Positions 6,821 through 13,656 of a DNA stretch of 64,000 bases are shown one piece after another; position 1 is the first letter of the stretch; each line of letters begins with the position of its first letter. The notes beneath the pieces were generated by a model, which searched no databases, had not been told where the DNA came from, and was given only the letters and a program-made list of their open reading frames with translations. The stretch is from Planctomycetaceae bacterium (GTDB taxonomy: Bacteria; Planctomycetota; Planctomycetia; Planctomycetales; Planctomycetaceae). Location: assembly GCA_002722955.1 (NCBI GenBank), contig PBMZ01000122.1, forward strand, positions 1 to 64,000, given 5' to 3'. A program made the translations under genes and the position numbers.

Positions 6821-7582
6821 TTAGCCGTTGGCCCGGAAACGAATGTGGCGAAAGTTGCAATCCTGCGATTCTTGGATGTAGCGGATTCCATTCTTGCAGG
6901 CACTTCGAACATCGGGTCTCAGGTGAGTTAGCCAGTCGGGAATGAACTCGGATCGAGCCATGGCATAAAGAGCCAAAGCATAGCCGTACATCTCCATAGT
7001 TATGTAACCGCGACGGCTCATTTCCCAGCCTGTCCAGCCACCAGAAAACCAATAGTTTTCATTCATCACTGAATTTGAGGTGAGGATGCCCAGCCCCATA
7101 AAGACTGTCAGCAAGTCGGTGAGCTCTTCGTGATCTTCCTCTTCGCCGGTCAGTCGGTTTTGTCCTAGCAATAAGACATGTCCCAATTCGTGAGCGATTG
7201 TCGAGACAACCGCCAGTGGATCTTCAAGCGTCGAGACCTCTAACCAAATGTCATATTGGCCGTCGGATTCTGAATACATCCCGGCTGAACCGTTGCTCCA
7301 TTGGCCATTGAATTTGGGGTGAGTTTCCTCGTAATAGTTCAGCCGCACGCTCATCGGATCGACGTCCATAAACATCGCAACACGATCCAAGAGTTCGACG
7401 ATCTCTTCATCAGTGCGTTCAAAGCTCGCCGGAAAGAAGTCTGTTGTTGGCAAGATCGTTGTTCCTGACCGCAGCTGCTCACAGGTAAACTGGTCGGCTA
7501 ACCAACCAAAGCGCTCCTCGATCCACACTTTTTCTTCTGCGCCAACAGGGCAAGTCGCTTTCGAACGAAGCCATTTCAGCAT
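6821..7582 (-). CDS. HExxH zinc-metalloprotease-like protein
   Basis: About 253 residues with no signal peptide or membrane helix. The core is VVSTIAHELGHVLLLGQNR, a gluzincin-type HExxH motif, followed about 15 residues later by EEEDHEELTDLLTVFMGLG, where an acidic residue could be the third zinc ligand. An acidic N-terminal half (TDEEIVELLDRVAMFMDVDP) precedes it. I do not recognise a named family. ATG 7582 is preferred because GAGG lies 6 bases upstream; a GTG at 7594 is in frame. It starts 18 bases after the stop of the phytanoyl-CoA dioxygenase-like gene, so the two are probably one transcript. Protease activity is inferred from the motif only. Confidence 0.7.
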   Translation of the reverse strand: MLKWLRSKATCPVGAEEKVWIEERFGWLADQFTCEQLRSGTTILPTTDFFPASFERTDEEIVELLDRVAMFMDVDPMSVRLNYYEETHPKFNGQWSNGSAGMYSESDGQYDIWLEVSTLEDPLAVVSTIAHELGHVLLLGQNRLTGEEEDHEELTDLLTVFMGLGILTSNSVMNENYWFSGGWTGWEMSRRGYITMEMYGYALALYAMARSEFIPDWLTHLRPDVRSACKNGIRYIQESQDCNFRHIRFRANG

Positions 7583-7600
7583 TGGCGGCCTCACATCGGT

Positions 7601-8647
7601 TCATTCGCTCAACGACGCTAAGACTGTCGACGCCCGCTGACCTTGCTCGGACGAGGGATCTCGAACGGAGATTCTTCTGAGGTGCAATTGGGCTCGTTCA
7701 TCGCCGCTTTGAGCCAATTCGCAGGCTTCGTCAAAGCCTTGGTCAAGGTAGACGGTGATCTTGGACAGGACGGGATTGTCGTACTCGGCCCAATAATACT
7801 GAGTCTCTGTGCTGTCCCAGTCCTTGTAGACTTCGTCCCAAGGCAGCGGGCTCATCGAGCTGAGATGCGGCATCAACATATGCTCTGCGATTGGATCACC
7901 GACACGCTGGTATCGGTTGTCGAGCGAAACTCGCAAGCGATCCTCCGTCAGATTCGGTAATGCCTGGTGCACGGTCAGAGCCGGAAAGATCAACGTGTCC
8001 CCGATCTCATAGTTTGTGGTGTGCCACTGGCCGTCCAGTTCCGAATGTTCATCCGGGTCTACATGCAAGCTTCCCGCACCCAACGAAAAGTGATGATCCA
8101 GCACGCGATCGACTTTGTGAGAGCCCCTTAAGACCGCTAGTCCTCCCAACTCGATCGGGCAATCACCAACAGGACTCCAACAGGTCAGATTCTCATGAGT
8201 CCCTTGAAAGTGAACAAAGTCTTGATGAATCGGCGTGGTGTGCTCGGTGAATTTCGGAAACCACAATCGAGCCACTTTTTGAGGTTGCGGCATCATTGGG
8301 CAACCACGCACATCCTCCAGCAAATCCATGACGGCGCGGCAATGAGCAATCTCATGGAAAGACTGCAGCTTATAGACTTCGTGATAGACGTCGGTATAAC
8401 CGAGGTCGCCTTCAGTACATCGCGCGTCTAGGCTGGCGATGCCATCGACGGGATCAGTTCCCTTCACCAACCATCCGCCTTCTTGCATCACGGTCAACAT
8501 CTCTCGGCGCAGGTCGTGTAACCGATCGGGATCCAACAGCCGTTTGAAGAACAGATAGCCGTCGTCGTCCAGACGTCGCCTCAACTCGGCAACGTCTTCG
8601 CGTGCCTCGTTGGAACCCCGCAATTCGGGCATGGTGTTTTCAGACAT
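7601..8647 (-). CDS. phytanoyl-CoA dioxygenase (PhyH)-family oxygenase
   Basis: A 348-residue Fe(II)/2-oxoglutarate-dependent oxygenase of the PhyH type. DDDGYLFFKRLLDPDRLHDLRREML is the family's N-terminal signature, followed by TPIHQDFVHFQGTHENLTCW, which carries the His-x-Asp iron ligands, and by WHTTNYEIGDTLIFPALTVHQALPN with the distal His, then LRVSLDNRYQ for 2-oxoglutarate binding. No export signal. The family hydroxylates small organic substrates; the substrate here is unknown. ATG 8647 was chosen over an upstream in-frame codon at 8677. It lies 80 bases downstream of the TPR gene and just before the HExxH protein gene. Confidence 0.85.
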   Translation of the reverse strand: MSENTMPELRGSNEAREDVAELRRRLDDDGYLFFKRLLDPDRLHDLRREMLTVMQEGGWLVKGTDPVDGIASLDARCTEGDLGYTDVYHEVYKLQSFHEIAHCRAVMDLLEDVRGCPMMPQPQKVARLWFPKFTEHTTPIHQDFVHFQGTHENLTCWSPVGDCPIELGGLAVLRGSHKVDRVLDHHFSLGAGSLHVDPDEHSELDGQWHTTNYEIGDTLIFPALTVHQALPNLTEDRLRVSLDNRYQRVGDPIAEHMLMPHLSSMSPLPWDEVYKDWDSTETQYYWAEYDNPVLSKITVYLDQGFDEACELAQSGDERAQLHLRRISVRDPSSEQGQRASTVLASLSE

Positions 8648-8727
8648 GATGGAACTCGGTGAGTAATTCAGTTGCAACGATCACTCGAACCATTTCAACA
8701 TATCTCGCGAGCTTTCGCCAACCTGAA

Positions 8728-11346
8728 CTATTCCTCGTCTTCGTCGCCTTCTTCGGATCGCGATACCGGGAATCGGCGACCTTGCCAGACGATGCCAGCA
8801 CAATCTTGGAATCCCTCGGCCTCTAACTCGACACCGATGACTTCTGGTTCCAAGTCAAAACATTCTCTTTGCAGCTCCAGCACTTGGGCCACTGCCTCGT
8901 CTTCATCGGGGGCAAGCACCCCCCACTCGATGCAGTAAGCCGACCACTCTTCCTCGCCGGCTAAGCAACCGGGCGAGTTGCCCCAGGATTCATCCAGCGG
9001 CTGCGCGACCAGCATTCGATAATAATTCACCAAGACATCCGGGTCAGGTTCGCCGTCGCGCAGAATATCGAAGTAGCCGTCTGGCATGATCCCGGCCTTG
9101 AGCAAAGTGGACTCGAACTTTTGTCGTTCGACATTGTTCGGCGGGATGTTGCCCATTTGACGCCAGACCAATCCAGACAGATTCTGAATCCCTGTTGCCG
9201 TCATATCGGTGACCTCGCTGAAGCGAATCTCGTTGATCTTTTGGAGGGCTTCGAGTCCGCTGTCGCTCCCGCTTCCCAGCAATTGGGCTGCCTCGAGCAT
9301 ATCCATGGGAGCCGGTGATTCATGATCCTCGAACTCGCGTTCGGCGGCGATGGCATCGGCGGCCGCGTCATAACACTCTAATTCGATCAGCGCGAGGGCT
9401 CGATAATAATTGGACCACATCGTGCCGGGCTCGAGCATGTCCAATCGATCGAGATACGTTAGCACGGAATCAAACTGTTCTAAATCCAAGGCGACGTTGG
9501 CCGCCATCCATGCGATTCCAGGATACTCACCGCCGTCGCGAAGATAGACGTCCAAGACATTCAGCGCGTCACGCGGTCGATCGGTCTGCCGATAAACGTT
9601 GGCAAGGTTCTCGCACGCTGACGGATTACTTCGGTCTAAACGGAATGAGCGAGCGAAACACCGCTCGGCCTCACCCTCGTTGCCAATTTCCAAGAAGTAT
9701 TCGCCGGCGCGAAGATGGTTACCGGGGCGGTTGGCATCCATCAACAAGGAAAGTTTGAACATCTTGCCCAATTCTTCGTCCGCGATGACCCCCTCCGCTT
9801 CCCCTTCGAAGTTCACTTTCAGGGCCAATCCCAATGTCGCGATCATGCTGAGCACGCTGGGTTCGTCAGGCATTGCTCGCTCAAAAGCTCTAGCCCAATC
9901 CCAGATCTCTTGAACGCTTTCTTTGAACGGCACCATCTGACGAAATCCCATCAGCGACATGACATTGCGATCATTGGTCACCGTTTCGGCGTTGTAGCGG
10001 ACGGCGAATTCGGTCATCGCGTTCATTCGTTCGTCTTCGTCTTCGATTTCATAGCAGCTCCCGATGAACGCCAGCACTTCTTGGTCGAAATCGCTGGGGC
10101 CCTCTTCTTGCATTGCGGCCGCTTGGCCTTGGCCTTGAGTTTCCGAGAACGCGTCACTCTTTTCACTTTCTCTGGAAACTTGGAAGGGCAGCGGTGCGTC
10201 GGTTTCCTCACCGGATGAAACGGCGGCAAATGGACTGACGGGAATCGAGTCGTCGAACAATCGGTCTAAACGTCGCAAAGTCAAGAAGTCGTTGGCGCCG
10301 TTTGCTTTGTCGCGAAGCTGCTGGGCCAGTTTTTCGACGCGAGCATCACCAGACAGCCGCATCGCTGCGATCAGTCGCAACCGAACATCAAACCAAATAT
10401 TCAAAACCTTCTGCTTCGAGAGCGCTCGATCGTGATCGGTCAGAATCGCAATGGCGTCTTCATAGTTGCCTTGCATCGAAGCCAGCAAGGCATCGTTCAT
10501 CGAGATCTGCAGGTCCAAAACGGTCCACTCACCCACAGGCGGTCTGTCTTCGCCGGGGCCTTCGTCGTCTGTCCAATCGATTCGCTCCATGCCGGCTGCG
10601 ATCCGAACCATGTCCAGGTTGGCGAGCATCCGCATCCTTGACTCGAATTTCAGGCTGATTTCTTCCGCTTCAACCAGCGAGGCTGCTTGGTTCATCGCTT
10701 CCAAGGCTGCTTCGAAATTGCTCTCCAACATGTAACTGCGAGCCAGTTTCGTTGCCGCGAACCATCGGCGGTCACCTCGATTCGACCATCCACCGTCTTG
10801 GCCCAAAACAGTTTGGCACTGATGCCGCGCGATCAACGGATCATCGGCCGATGTGTAAACGTCAGTTGCATATTCGCGGAAACAGGAAACACATTGCATC
10901 TTTCCAGTTTGACGACAAACCAGAATTCCTTCCGAGATGCATTGATGCATGCCTTCCGAGTTGTAGCCGTCCAGTTGCCCGATTGCCTCGGCAAGGTTCT
11001 CGTAAACACATGCGGTCATCCAAAATCGCGTGTGTTCGTATTCTGGCTGAAGGAAGTCGGCCTGGATCGCGCGAGCTTGATCTTCATCTTCCAGTACAGC
11101 AACCAACTCGATGGCGCAGTCGCGTTGCACGTCAAAGTCCAGCACATTCTGTGCTTGGTCCATGCGAAAGAACGTACCATAGATGTATTGCATCAACTTG
11201 TTGTTTTGCTTGGCCGTGCGAGCCCGCTCGCCATTCAATCTTGCGGCCGTGCGGAAATGTCCTTGATTCATCAAGTCGTTGGCGCGATCACCGATTTCCT
11301 CAAGTTGCTGTTCGATTTCATCCATTTGAGGTTCGTTGCCAGACAT
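8728..11346 (-). CDS. large tetratricopeptide-repeat protein
   Basis: An 872-residue, acidic, soluble protein rich in paired helices. TPR-like units are clearest in two places: the N-terminal third (for example KLARSYMLESNFEAALEAMN) and the second half (AGEYFLEIGNEGEAERCFAR, NLANVYRQTDRPRDALNVLD, YYRALALIELECYDAAADAI). A low-complexity Gln/Glu-rich linker near residues 385-420 separates the two parts. The C-terminus ends in acidic residues. The AGGAG ribosome site before ATG 11346 is strong. The gene lies 140 bases downstream of the HSP90-like gene on the same strand, and TPR proteins are the classic partners of HSP90, so a client- or co-chaperone-like role is plausible. No catalytic domain was recognised. 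Confidence 0.8.
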   Translation of the reverse strand: MSGNEPQMDEIEQQLEEIGDRANDLMNQGHFRTAARLNGERARTAKQNNKLMQYIYGTFFRMDQAQNVLDFDVQRDCAIELVAVLEDEDQARAIQADFLQPEYEHTRFWMTACVYENLAEAIGQLDGYNSEGMHQCISEGILVCRQTGKMQCVSCFREYATDVYTSADDPLIARHQCQTVLGQDGGWSNRGDRRWFAATKLARSYMLESNFEAALEAMNQAASLVEAEEISLKFESRMRMLANLDMVRIAAGMERIDWTDDEGPGEDRPPVGEWTVLDLQISMNDALLASMQGNYEDAIAILTDHDRALSKQKVLNIWFDVRLRLIAAMRLSGDARVEKLAQQLRDKANGANDFLTLRRLDRLFDDSIPVSPFAAVSSGEETDAPLPFQVSRESEKSDAFSETQGQGQAAAMQEEGPSDFDQEVLAFIGSCYEIEDEDERMNAMTEFAVRYNAETVTNDRNVMSLMGFRQMVPFKESVQEIWDWARAFERAMPDEPSVLSMIATLGLALKVNFEGEAEGVIADEELGKMFKLSLLMDANRPGNHLRAGEYFLEIGNEGEAERCFARSFRLDRSNPSACENLANVYRQTDRPRDALNVLDVYLRDGGEYPGIAWMAANVALDLEQFDSVLTYLDRLDMLEPGTMWSNYYRALALIELECYDAAADAIAAEREFEDHESPAPMDMLEAAQLLGSGSDSGLEALQKINEIRFSEVTDMTATGIQNLSGLVWRQMGNIPPNNVERQKFESTLLKAGIMPDGYFDILRDGEPDPDVLVNYYRMLVAQPLDESWGNSPGCLAGEEEWSAYCIEWGVLAPDEDEAVAQVLELQRECFDLEPEVIGVELEAEGFQDCAGIVWQGRRFPVSRSEEGDEDEE

Positions 11347-11486
11347 GGTAGCTCCTGTGGTCGATCTAGATCCGATTAGGCTGTGATTTGACGATTTACC
11401 GACTCAAATAGCAAGCAGAAACTGAAGAAATGTTTAACGCTTAATGGGGGGGGATTACTTCGATTGCCTAGACGGATTTCGCCCGC

Positions 11487-13358
11487 TTAGGAATCCCGTC
11501 CCCAGAGCGCTTCGGCGATCCAGTCCAGATCGTCCATTTGCTGATTGCGGGCCGATTGGTCCACGGAAGCGCCCGCGGAATTCAAAGCATTCAGCACCAG
11601 CAGTCGCAAAACGCTGGAAAGCGGTGTCCCTGTTCGCTGTGACATCACACGGTTTATCAGCGGGTGATTTCGATTCAGGACAACTTCGTTTCGCACGGCG
11701 TCTTCAACGTCCGAATCACCCAGATGGTTGTCGATCAACCGCTGAAATCCTGACGGGATACTTCCCTCTTTTCGTAGATCATCAAACGCGCGAAACAGCT
11801 CGTAACGTTCATTCAAAAAGGCCATGACCGGTTGGCGAGATTGAAAGCTAGCCGTCAAAATGCGGGCTCCCGTCGATTCCAGAAATCCTTGCCAAGTTTC
11901 ATCGACGTCTTCCAAATCACGCAGCCCCAGAACTCCTTCAGCAAAGCTTTGCGAGCCGGGACTTGCTATCCGCAAATCCGTGGCGATACCGGCTTCGTTA
12001 TCATCAGCCACGATCTGAGCTAAGAGCGTCTCCTCGAAACTGCGGACCGCATGCACGCATGGTACATCGTGGCCGTCAAACAACTGATTGACCCAGCGTT
12101 CTTGGCGACGGTCCGAGTTGTACCAGACGACGCGATCAGCATCGGTTTCGAACAAGGGATCGGCGGCACTTTGTTCCAGAATCTCATCAAACGTCAAGCG
12201 CCCCGCTGACGTCGACAACGTGTAGACTCGCCGTAAAAGATTCCGCAACCGGCGATCTTCCAAGGCGGCTCCCGCGAATGTGTAGCGATGCCAAGTTAGC
12301 GTTGCGTTGAGCCGCTCGCGGTCTGAGTCAACCAACTCTTCCAAGTGTGTGAACAATCGATCGTGCAGGCAATCAGACACGATTCGAAATCGATCGTCGC
12401 GAACCAAATCTTCGCGGCTGGCTGTTGGCGCGCAGTCGTTAAGCTCTAAGACGCCTCGCAAAAACGTAGCCCAACGAGGCAGCAAGTCTTGTATCCGACG
12501 AGAAATCACCATTCGGCGAACTGTGACCATCACCGTTGAAGTGTCACTGAAACCTGGCACGCGTTGTGGGCTGATATAAAGTGCTCCAGCAATCGACACG
12601 GGAGTTTCCATACGAATCGGAATGACGTCGAGTGGGGACTCGTCGAAGCAACTGGCTAACTCCAATTCCAGAGCTTCCGTGTCCGCGGTCGCTTCGAACC
12701 AAGAGGCCGTCATGACGTTGGCTCGTTGCTTGTTCTCGTTCAAATAAATCGGCACGGTTAAGAAGTCGGCGTATTCGCGAATCACCGACTCGAGCAATTC
12801 GGCGTCTCGTGCAAAGACACTCAATTCTTCCTTCAAATGCAACGTCACGCTGGTGCCGCTGTCTTCTCGATCGGCCGCTGTCATCAAGATGTCGGTGCCG
12901 GCTCCAGCCTCCCAGCGAACAGCTTCTGGATGATCCGTTTGACGACTGACGACGACAATCTTGTCAGCCAGCATGAAGCCGCTAAACAAACCGATTCCGA
13001 ACATTCCGATCAAGTCGCCACCGGCTCTAGCTGGCTGAACGGCTTCGGGTGCGCCGCCGCGTTTGATCAACCCGGTCATGCCGATTCCAAGTGTTCCCAG
13101 ATAAGCGTCGGCTTCGTCCGGTGTCAGTCCAACGCCGTCGTCCTCGAACTCCAATGTGTTGGCCTGTGCGTTTTGCCGTACGTTGATGCAGCCCTGAAAA
13201 GAAAGGTCGGCGCGCCTCCGTCGAGCGATAGCATCGTGAGCGTTCTGGATCAACTCGCGAATGGGAGTATCCATGCGGCTGTACAGCGACGCTCCCATGA
13301 TTTCAATAATGCCCGCAATGTCCACTTTGAATGGAATGCGGCGACTCCAGTCACTCAT
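11487..13358 (-). CDS. HSP90-family GHKL ATPase (HtpG-like)
   Basis: About 623 residues. The GHKL nucleotide pocket is complete: RELIQNAHDAIARRRR (N box with Glu and Asn), LEFEDDGVGLTPDEA (DxGxG), GMFGIGLFSGFMLAD (second Gly box) and DSGTSVTLHL (third Gly box). The middle region contains the HSP90-like VPIYLNE and the ASREDLVRDD block. It is diverged from housekeeping HtpG: for example the segment IGMTGLIKRGGAP replaces the usual lid sequence. It belongs to the group annotated simply as HSP90 family protein. ATG 13358 is preferred to an in-frame upstream codon at 13385. It is the first gene of a minus-strand set with the TPR, PhyH and HExxH genes. Confidence 0.85.
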   Translation of the reverse strand: MSDWSRRIPFKVDIAGIIEIMGASLYSRMDTPIRELIQNAHDAIARRRRADLSFQGCINVRQNAQANTLEFEDDGVGLTPDEADAYLGTLGIGMTGLIKRGGAPEAVQPARAGGDLIGMFGIGLFSGFMLADKIVVVSRQTDHPEAVRWEAGAGTDILMTAADREDSGTSVTLHLKEELSVFARDAELLESVIREYADFLTVPIYLNENKQRANVMTASWFEATADTEALELELASCFDESPLDVIPIRMETPVSIAGALYISPQRVPGFSDTSTVMVTVRRMVISRRIQDLLPRWATFLRGVLELNDCAPTASREDLVRDDRFRIVSDCLHDRLFTHLEELVDSDRERLNATLTWHRYTFAGAALEDRRLRNLLRRVYTLSTSAGRLTFDEILEQSAADPLFETDADRVVWYNSDRRQERWVNQLFDGHDVPCVHAVRSFEETLLAQIVADDNEAGIATDLRIASPGSQSFAEGVLGLRDLEDVDETWQGFLESTGARILTASFQSRQPVMAFLNERYELFRAFDDLRKEGSIPSGFQRLIDNHLGDSDVEDAVRNEVVLNRNHPLINRVMSQRTGTPLSSVLRLLVLNALNSAGASVDQSARNQQMDDLDWIAEALWGRDS

Positions 13359-13656
13359 CGATAATGGATTCCTGACCCCGAGCAAGAGTACTACTGTGCG
13401 CGGGAATAGAGAGTGGAAATGTTTTCACGAGCGGCGAGATGTGTGAGGGCCGCCAGTTCTTGGAAAGAGCGCGTTTTCCAAGCCAACGTTTAACGTATTC
13501 GCGACCGTTCCTCAAGTCGCACCAAGGTGTCTTTCGGAGGGCAATTTTGAGGCCAAGATGTCAGCAACTCAAGGTCCCGTCGATGTCGCAATTCACGGGT
13601 GGCTTGCTACGATAAGAGGCGAAACTGCTGACACGGTTTATTAACTGGAGACGCCA

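Follow-up and report, generated by a model that had tools for sequence, protein, structure and literature searches.

In eukaryotes, the TPR domains of co-chaperones clamp the C-terminal MEEVD peptide (PMC8629791), and systems such as Hop/Sti1 and FKBP51/52 resemble the locus described here in that an HSP90 is paired with a TPR protein. No Hop-like protein has been discovered in bacteria (PMC8629791), and a genome-wide co-evolution study of bacterial Hsp90 identified no obligate bacterial co-chaperone, with the hsp90B and hsp90C paralogues left out of that analysis (PMC3708813). Bacterial HSP90s have been split into groups A, B and C (PMC1525184). HtpG (bacterial hsp90A) has the same three domains, catalytic Glu, Asn, Asp and Arg positions and final C-terminal helix as the HSP90 studied here, and likewise no MEEVD; it differs in forming a separate clade, and at the HtpG loci that were examined neither of the TPR families described below supplies a partner. 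A second relative, PRK14083/NF010683 (Listeria lmo0942-like, also in Streptomyces and Paenibacillus), likewise stands outside HtpG and is followed immediately by a TPR-like gene, but forms a distinct clade with 100/100 support, and its partner is a CxxC/RNGN protein of 320-380 aa (about 1,000-1,140 aa in actinobacteria) instead of the 872-aa TPR protein found here. The locus analysed lies in a stretch of 64,000 nucleotides from a Planctomycetaceae bacterium, referred to as the window, and its features are collected in Table 1.

Table 1. Positions in the window of the HSP90 gene, the TPR gene and their neighbours, with the basis of each assignment
Feature	Position	Strand	Basis
Diverged three-domain HSP90, 623 aa	11487..13358	-	PF00183, catalytic residues, structural match, own clade
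HSP90 with alternative start TTG at 13385, 632 aa	11487-13385	-	
HSP90 final helix, residues 610-628 (632-aa frame), ...DDLDWIAEALWGRD	11502..11558	-	HtpG last-helix position
HSP90-TPR intergenic gap, 140 bp, no terminator-like site	11347..11486	-	
TPR solenoid protein, partner gene, 872 aa	8728..11346	-	Pfam TPR_2, AF2, co-occurrence, adjacency
Conserved cysteine region of TPR protein (C113, C144, C152, C155; VCRxTGKxxCxxCFRE)	10882..11010	-	Conservation
C-terminal alpha/beta domain of TPR protein, residues 773-855, then short acidic tail	8782..9030	-	AF2 secondary structure
PhyH-like dioxygenase, neighbour outside conserved module	7601..8677	-	PF05721, E 3e-15
HExxH protein, neighbour outside conserved module	6821..7594	-	No Pfam family above cut-off

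The HSP90-like ATPase

The Pfam model PF00183 places the ATPase in the HSP90 family (37.7 bits, cut-off 24.4). Among the NCBIfam models, the PRK14083 'HSP90 family protein' and HtpG matched it best. Both equivalogs scored below their cut-offs, with 283 bits against 455 for NF010683/PRK14083 (E 4e-84) and 205.7 bits against 371 for NF003555 (HtpG), and the protein is placed outside the HtpG clade. The 623-aa version was preferred to the longer one because the orthologues, when aligned, begin at the ATG near 13358. The alignment showed that the positions of HtpG E34, N38, D80 and R336, which make up the GHKL ATP site and the middle-domain catalytic Arg, are kept, and ATPase activity is predicted for the protein. 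In the AlphaFold2 model (mean pLDDT 80.8, 27 orthologues used) the N-M-C architecture with the C-terminal helices was found as in TRAP1 and HtpG, and TRAP1, HtpG and Hsp90 structures matched the model over its full length, with E values of 5e-29 or better among the 50 matches listed. Judged from the model, the ATPase is a full HSP90 in which both the ATP-driven clamp and the region for C-terminal dimerisation are retained. A phage protein family of unknown function (phrog_32952) also matches the HSP90 middle region (E 7e-15), so that HSP90-like proteins are apparently encoded by some phages.

The source genome has three HSP90-type genes, namely HtpG on contig C80, the window gene on C122 and a third on C183, and the window HSP90 shares about 29% identity with its own HtpG over the matched part. 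In a tree computed without two loci whose reading frames were wrong (L024 and L031), the relatives of the window HSP90, the HtpG proteins and the PRK14083-like proteins fall on three separate branches, each with 100/100 support, the deeper order and the root being left unresolved by the tree.

The TPR protein

The 872-aa protein scored just above the cut-off of PF07719 TPR_2 (28.2 bits against 27), while the remaining TPR models scored below theirs, and consensus TPR proteins were among its PDB matches. AlphaFold2 predicted an alpha-solenoid in two halves and a small C-terminal alpha/beta domain (mean pLDDT 88.8), and QPL, WGVLA and VWQG motifs are conserved in this domain. The closest solved folds found by Foldseek were scaffold solenoids, i.e., APC/C subunits, Ski3, Ctr9 and OGT, with low TM-scores of about 0.2 by query length, which reflect a generic superhelix likeness only. 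In the N-terminal part, C113, C144, C152 and C155 are nearly invariant, and the cysteine region is suggested to be a candidate metal or redox site, because C113, C152 and C155 are jointly missing from two duplicate copies of the protein. The family is restricted to Planctomycetota: when the genomes of 84,980 species were scanned, 74 loci were obtained, essentially all of them from this phylum, and the few non-planctomycete MAG names among them (e.g., 'Pelobacter') are probably mislabelled. The TPR protein evolves faster than the HSP90, with 30-43% identity to the window copy versus 50-67%.

The first-pass annotation had described two genes on the same strand, a HSP90-family ATPase with GHKL motifs, diverged from housekeeping HtpG, and a very large TPR protein directly downstream. 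The positions of the reading frames were confirmed, all of them on the minus strand, and the description of both proteins held in the family models, the catalytic residues, the comparison with the HtpG elsewhere in the genome and the predicted solenoid.

Co-occurrence and gene order

Among 170 genomes of the family, 44 held both genes, 2 the HSP90 only, 2 the TPR gene only and 122 neither, a co-occurrence with a Fisher p of 9e-36 by a statistic which ignores phylogeny. The concern about relatedness is partly met because contrasts within genera agree: in the mixed genera g57, g31, g30, g34 and g75 the species hold both genes or neither. Of the four exceptions, three come from assemblies that are only 61, 71 and 86% complete; the remaining one, G144 (99% complete), has an HSP90 gene that is cut by the end of its contig. 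When 59 relatives were compared, HSP90 orthologues (51% identity or more) and TPR orthologues were found in the same nine genomes, the source genome included. Against the pair counts one genome, G196 (93% complete), in which the TPR protein is present and the HSP90 orthologue absent. In most of the 44 family genomes with both genes the two are unlinked, so that their co-occurrence is not simple hitch-hiking. Across planctomycetes the two genes have been acquired and lost in step, and this suggests a dedicated bacterial HSP90/TPR machine.

The 74 loci partly overlap the genomes of the family search. In 22 of them the TPR gene has an HSP90 orthologue as its neighbour; in 21 this is directly upstream on the same strand and in one it is divergent. 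HSP90 precedes TPR in all 21 of the named tandems, and the gaps elsewhere range from an overlap to 688 bp and are often short. The tandem is kept in about two dozen genomes from deep planctomycete lineages, including G045, a member of the same class and another family with 51% HSP90 identity, and more distant families, as in G306, G546 (= Pla163), Isosphaeraceae and Pirellulaceae. The recurrence in distant genomes that the first-pass annotation had proposed as a check on the ATPase-TPR adjacency was therefore observed within Planctomycetota. On the other side, HSP90 was upstream in only 19 of the 51 named TPR loci with at least 2 kb of upstream sequence, which counts against the pair. The tandem state is clustered on the unrooted TPR tree, requiring 8 changes versus 16.7 expected from shuffles, and because of this clustering and of the spread over Pla163, Isosphaeraceae and Pirellulaceae, the simplest reading is that the tandem was ancestral and was repeatedly broken up. 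A promoter and terminator scan gave 2 promoter-like and 7 terminator-like sites versus 3.8 and 7.4 expected, i.e., chance level.

HSP90-TPR neighbours in other bacteria

A PRK14083-like HSP90 followed by a TPR-like gene was found in Listeria monocytogenes, where the gap is 11 bp and two TPR-like copies are present, in Paenibacillus, in three Streptomyces and in several planctomycetes, and the third HSP90 of the source genome (on C183) is among these. This third gene (L042:11694-12797, G000:C183:45727-46758) has small-family TPR genes on both flanks, and the one downstream is broken by an in-frame TAG, through either gene decay or an error in sequencing. Tandem duplication of the TPR partner next to one HSP90 is frequent in the large as well as the small TPR system; two copies beside one HSP90 were seen at L128, L130 and L131, and duplication also occurs in Listeria (L272:4899-6867) and in G049. 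In Xanthomonas vasicola and P. aeruginosa (L278:3971-8194 and L280:3890-8131) an HSP90-like 'ATP-binding protein' is followed by a TPR protein of 764-774 aa after 24 bp and 36 bp, respectively, and this pair is possibly a third HSP90-TPR lineage. A plasmid of Pseudanabaena (L277:3228-8810) carries an 877-aa HSP90-like protein whose gene adjoins one for a TIR-domain protein, and a TPR gene follows two genes downstream.

As a control, about 20 planctomycete HtpG loci were searched, mostly about 1-1.5 kb on each side, and neither TPR model matched, while the TPR partner adjoined HSP90 at five loci of the small-TPR clade. The large TPR and the small CxxC/RNGN TPR were related by hhalign with a probability of at most 18%, the best local alignment at this low probability pairing their N-termini and CxxC motifs. 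TPR proteins of three kinds stand beside non-HtpG HSP90s, i.e., the planctomycete large TPR, the CxxC/RNGN TPR found in Bacillota, Actinomycetota and planctomycetes, and the TPR of Xanthomonas and Pseudomonas. We raise, as a tentative generalisation with somewhat less than an even chance of being right, that non-HtpG bacterial HSP90s are generally two-component systems in which each clade has its own downstream TPR protein from at least three TPR families. If this is true, the HSP90-TPR partnership in bacteria would be independent of the eukaryotic MEEVD system and would use another docking mode.

Proposed mechanism and alternative explanations

The pairing proposed in the first-pass annotation drew support from the recurrent tandem, from a single phyletic pattern which persists even when the genes are unlinked, and from the other non-HtpG HSP90s that adjoin TPR genes. 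A functional link between HSP90 and TPR is by itself very likely, and we regard it as probable that the two form a dedicated pair, presumably as a physical complex in which the TPR protein is the adaptor. The HSP90, outside the HtpG lineage, would be an ATP-driven clamp, and the long TPR solenoid would most likely be its obligate adaptor or co-chaperone, which would bind the HSP90, or the HSP90 together with a client, and could thereby choose clients or retain them while the ATPase cycle proceeds. Physical binding, the co-chaperone role, ATPase activity, the clients and a metal at the cysteine site are put forward here as predictions.

Docking by analogy with the C-terminal tails of eukaryotes was not supported. 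In systems of the Hop and FKBP type the HSP90 ends in MEEVD, whereas the window HSP90 ends DLDWIAEALWGRDS and matches the final helix of HtpG, and no MEEVD-like C-terminal extension was found in the alignment or in the AlphaFold2 model. This final helix is nearly invariant in the clade and is preceded by a variable loop. The conserved C-terminal peptide DLDWIAEALWGRD was considered as an MEEVD-like docking tail and rejected, because AlphaFold2 models it with confidence as a helix that coincides with the last helix of HtpG. Eukaryote-style docking on the HSP90 tail is unlikely because the HSP90 stops at this helix, and since it has no peptide tail for a dicarboxylate clamp of the eukaryotic type, docking would need a surface, either of the HSP90 or of the C-terminal domain of the TPR protein.

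The alternative that survives best, though we consider it unlikely, takes the TPR protein as a dedicated client, i.e., a large solenoid which needs HSP90 for its folding or assembly. A private client predicts the same co-occurrence and operon pattern as an adaptor, and both the faster evolution of the TPR protein and the genomes with two TPR copies per HSP90 agree with it. What speaks for an adaptor instead is that different TPR families, unrelated or very distant, recur beside three clades of non-HtpG HSP90s, which a generic adaptor explains better than three private clients.

The TPR protein could also be a separate sensor that merely needs HSP90, and a signalling or conflict system, in which a GHKL/HSP90 ATPase switch and a TPR sensor serve, e.g., anti-phage defence or stress sensing, is more doubtful still. 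The patchy presence inside genera, the tandem duplication of the TPR gene and the TIR gene beside the distant HSP90-like gene of Pseudanabaena are consistent with such a system, but no effector domain is conserved nearby in the orthologue neighbourhoods or the 74 loci, the four proteins scanned gave no significant PADLOC match, and the complete HSP90 architecture, in which M and C domains are present, speaks for a chaperone. A known anti-phage defence system was rejected, the best match in PADLOC 2.0.0 being TmtA with E 0.006 over 64 residues. That two independently useful genes are neighbours by chance would fit their being unlinked in most genomes, but is highly improbable given the matched presence and absence, the order conserved across distant families and the negative HtpG control.

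An equally improbable reading is that HSP90 and TPR belong with the PhyH dioxygenase and HExxH genes to one four-gene chaperone/enzyme module, as the first-pass annotation had supposed from genes on one strand with short gaps in the window. Homologues of PhyH, HExxH and the glyoxalase were found in 0 of the 74 TPR loci, nor were they found in the shared orthologue neighbourhoods examined, which contradicts the four genes as a conserved unit, and no further neighbour conserved beyond close relatives was found in the orthologue neighbourhoods. The HExxH protein weakly resembles the aKG-HExxH peptide beta-hydroxylase (E 0.0055).

Significance

No description of an HSP90-TPR operon was found in the literature searched, and we regard it as new provisionally, because the search excluded most subscription journals. 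The adaptor reading preferred here would amount to an HSP90/TPR machine that bacteria have been believed to lack. A private, co-inherited TPR partner of a non-HtpG HSP90 would make the existence of bacterial HSP90 co-chaperones directly testable, and cultured organisms in which this question may be addressed include Singulisphaera, Aquisphaera, Aporhodopirellula, Streptomyces and Paenibacillus.
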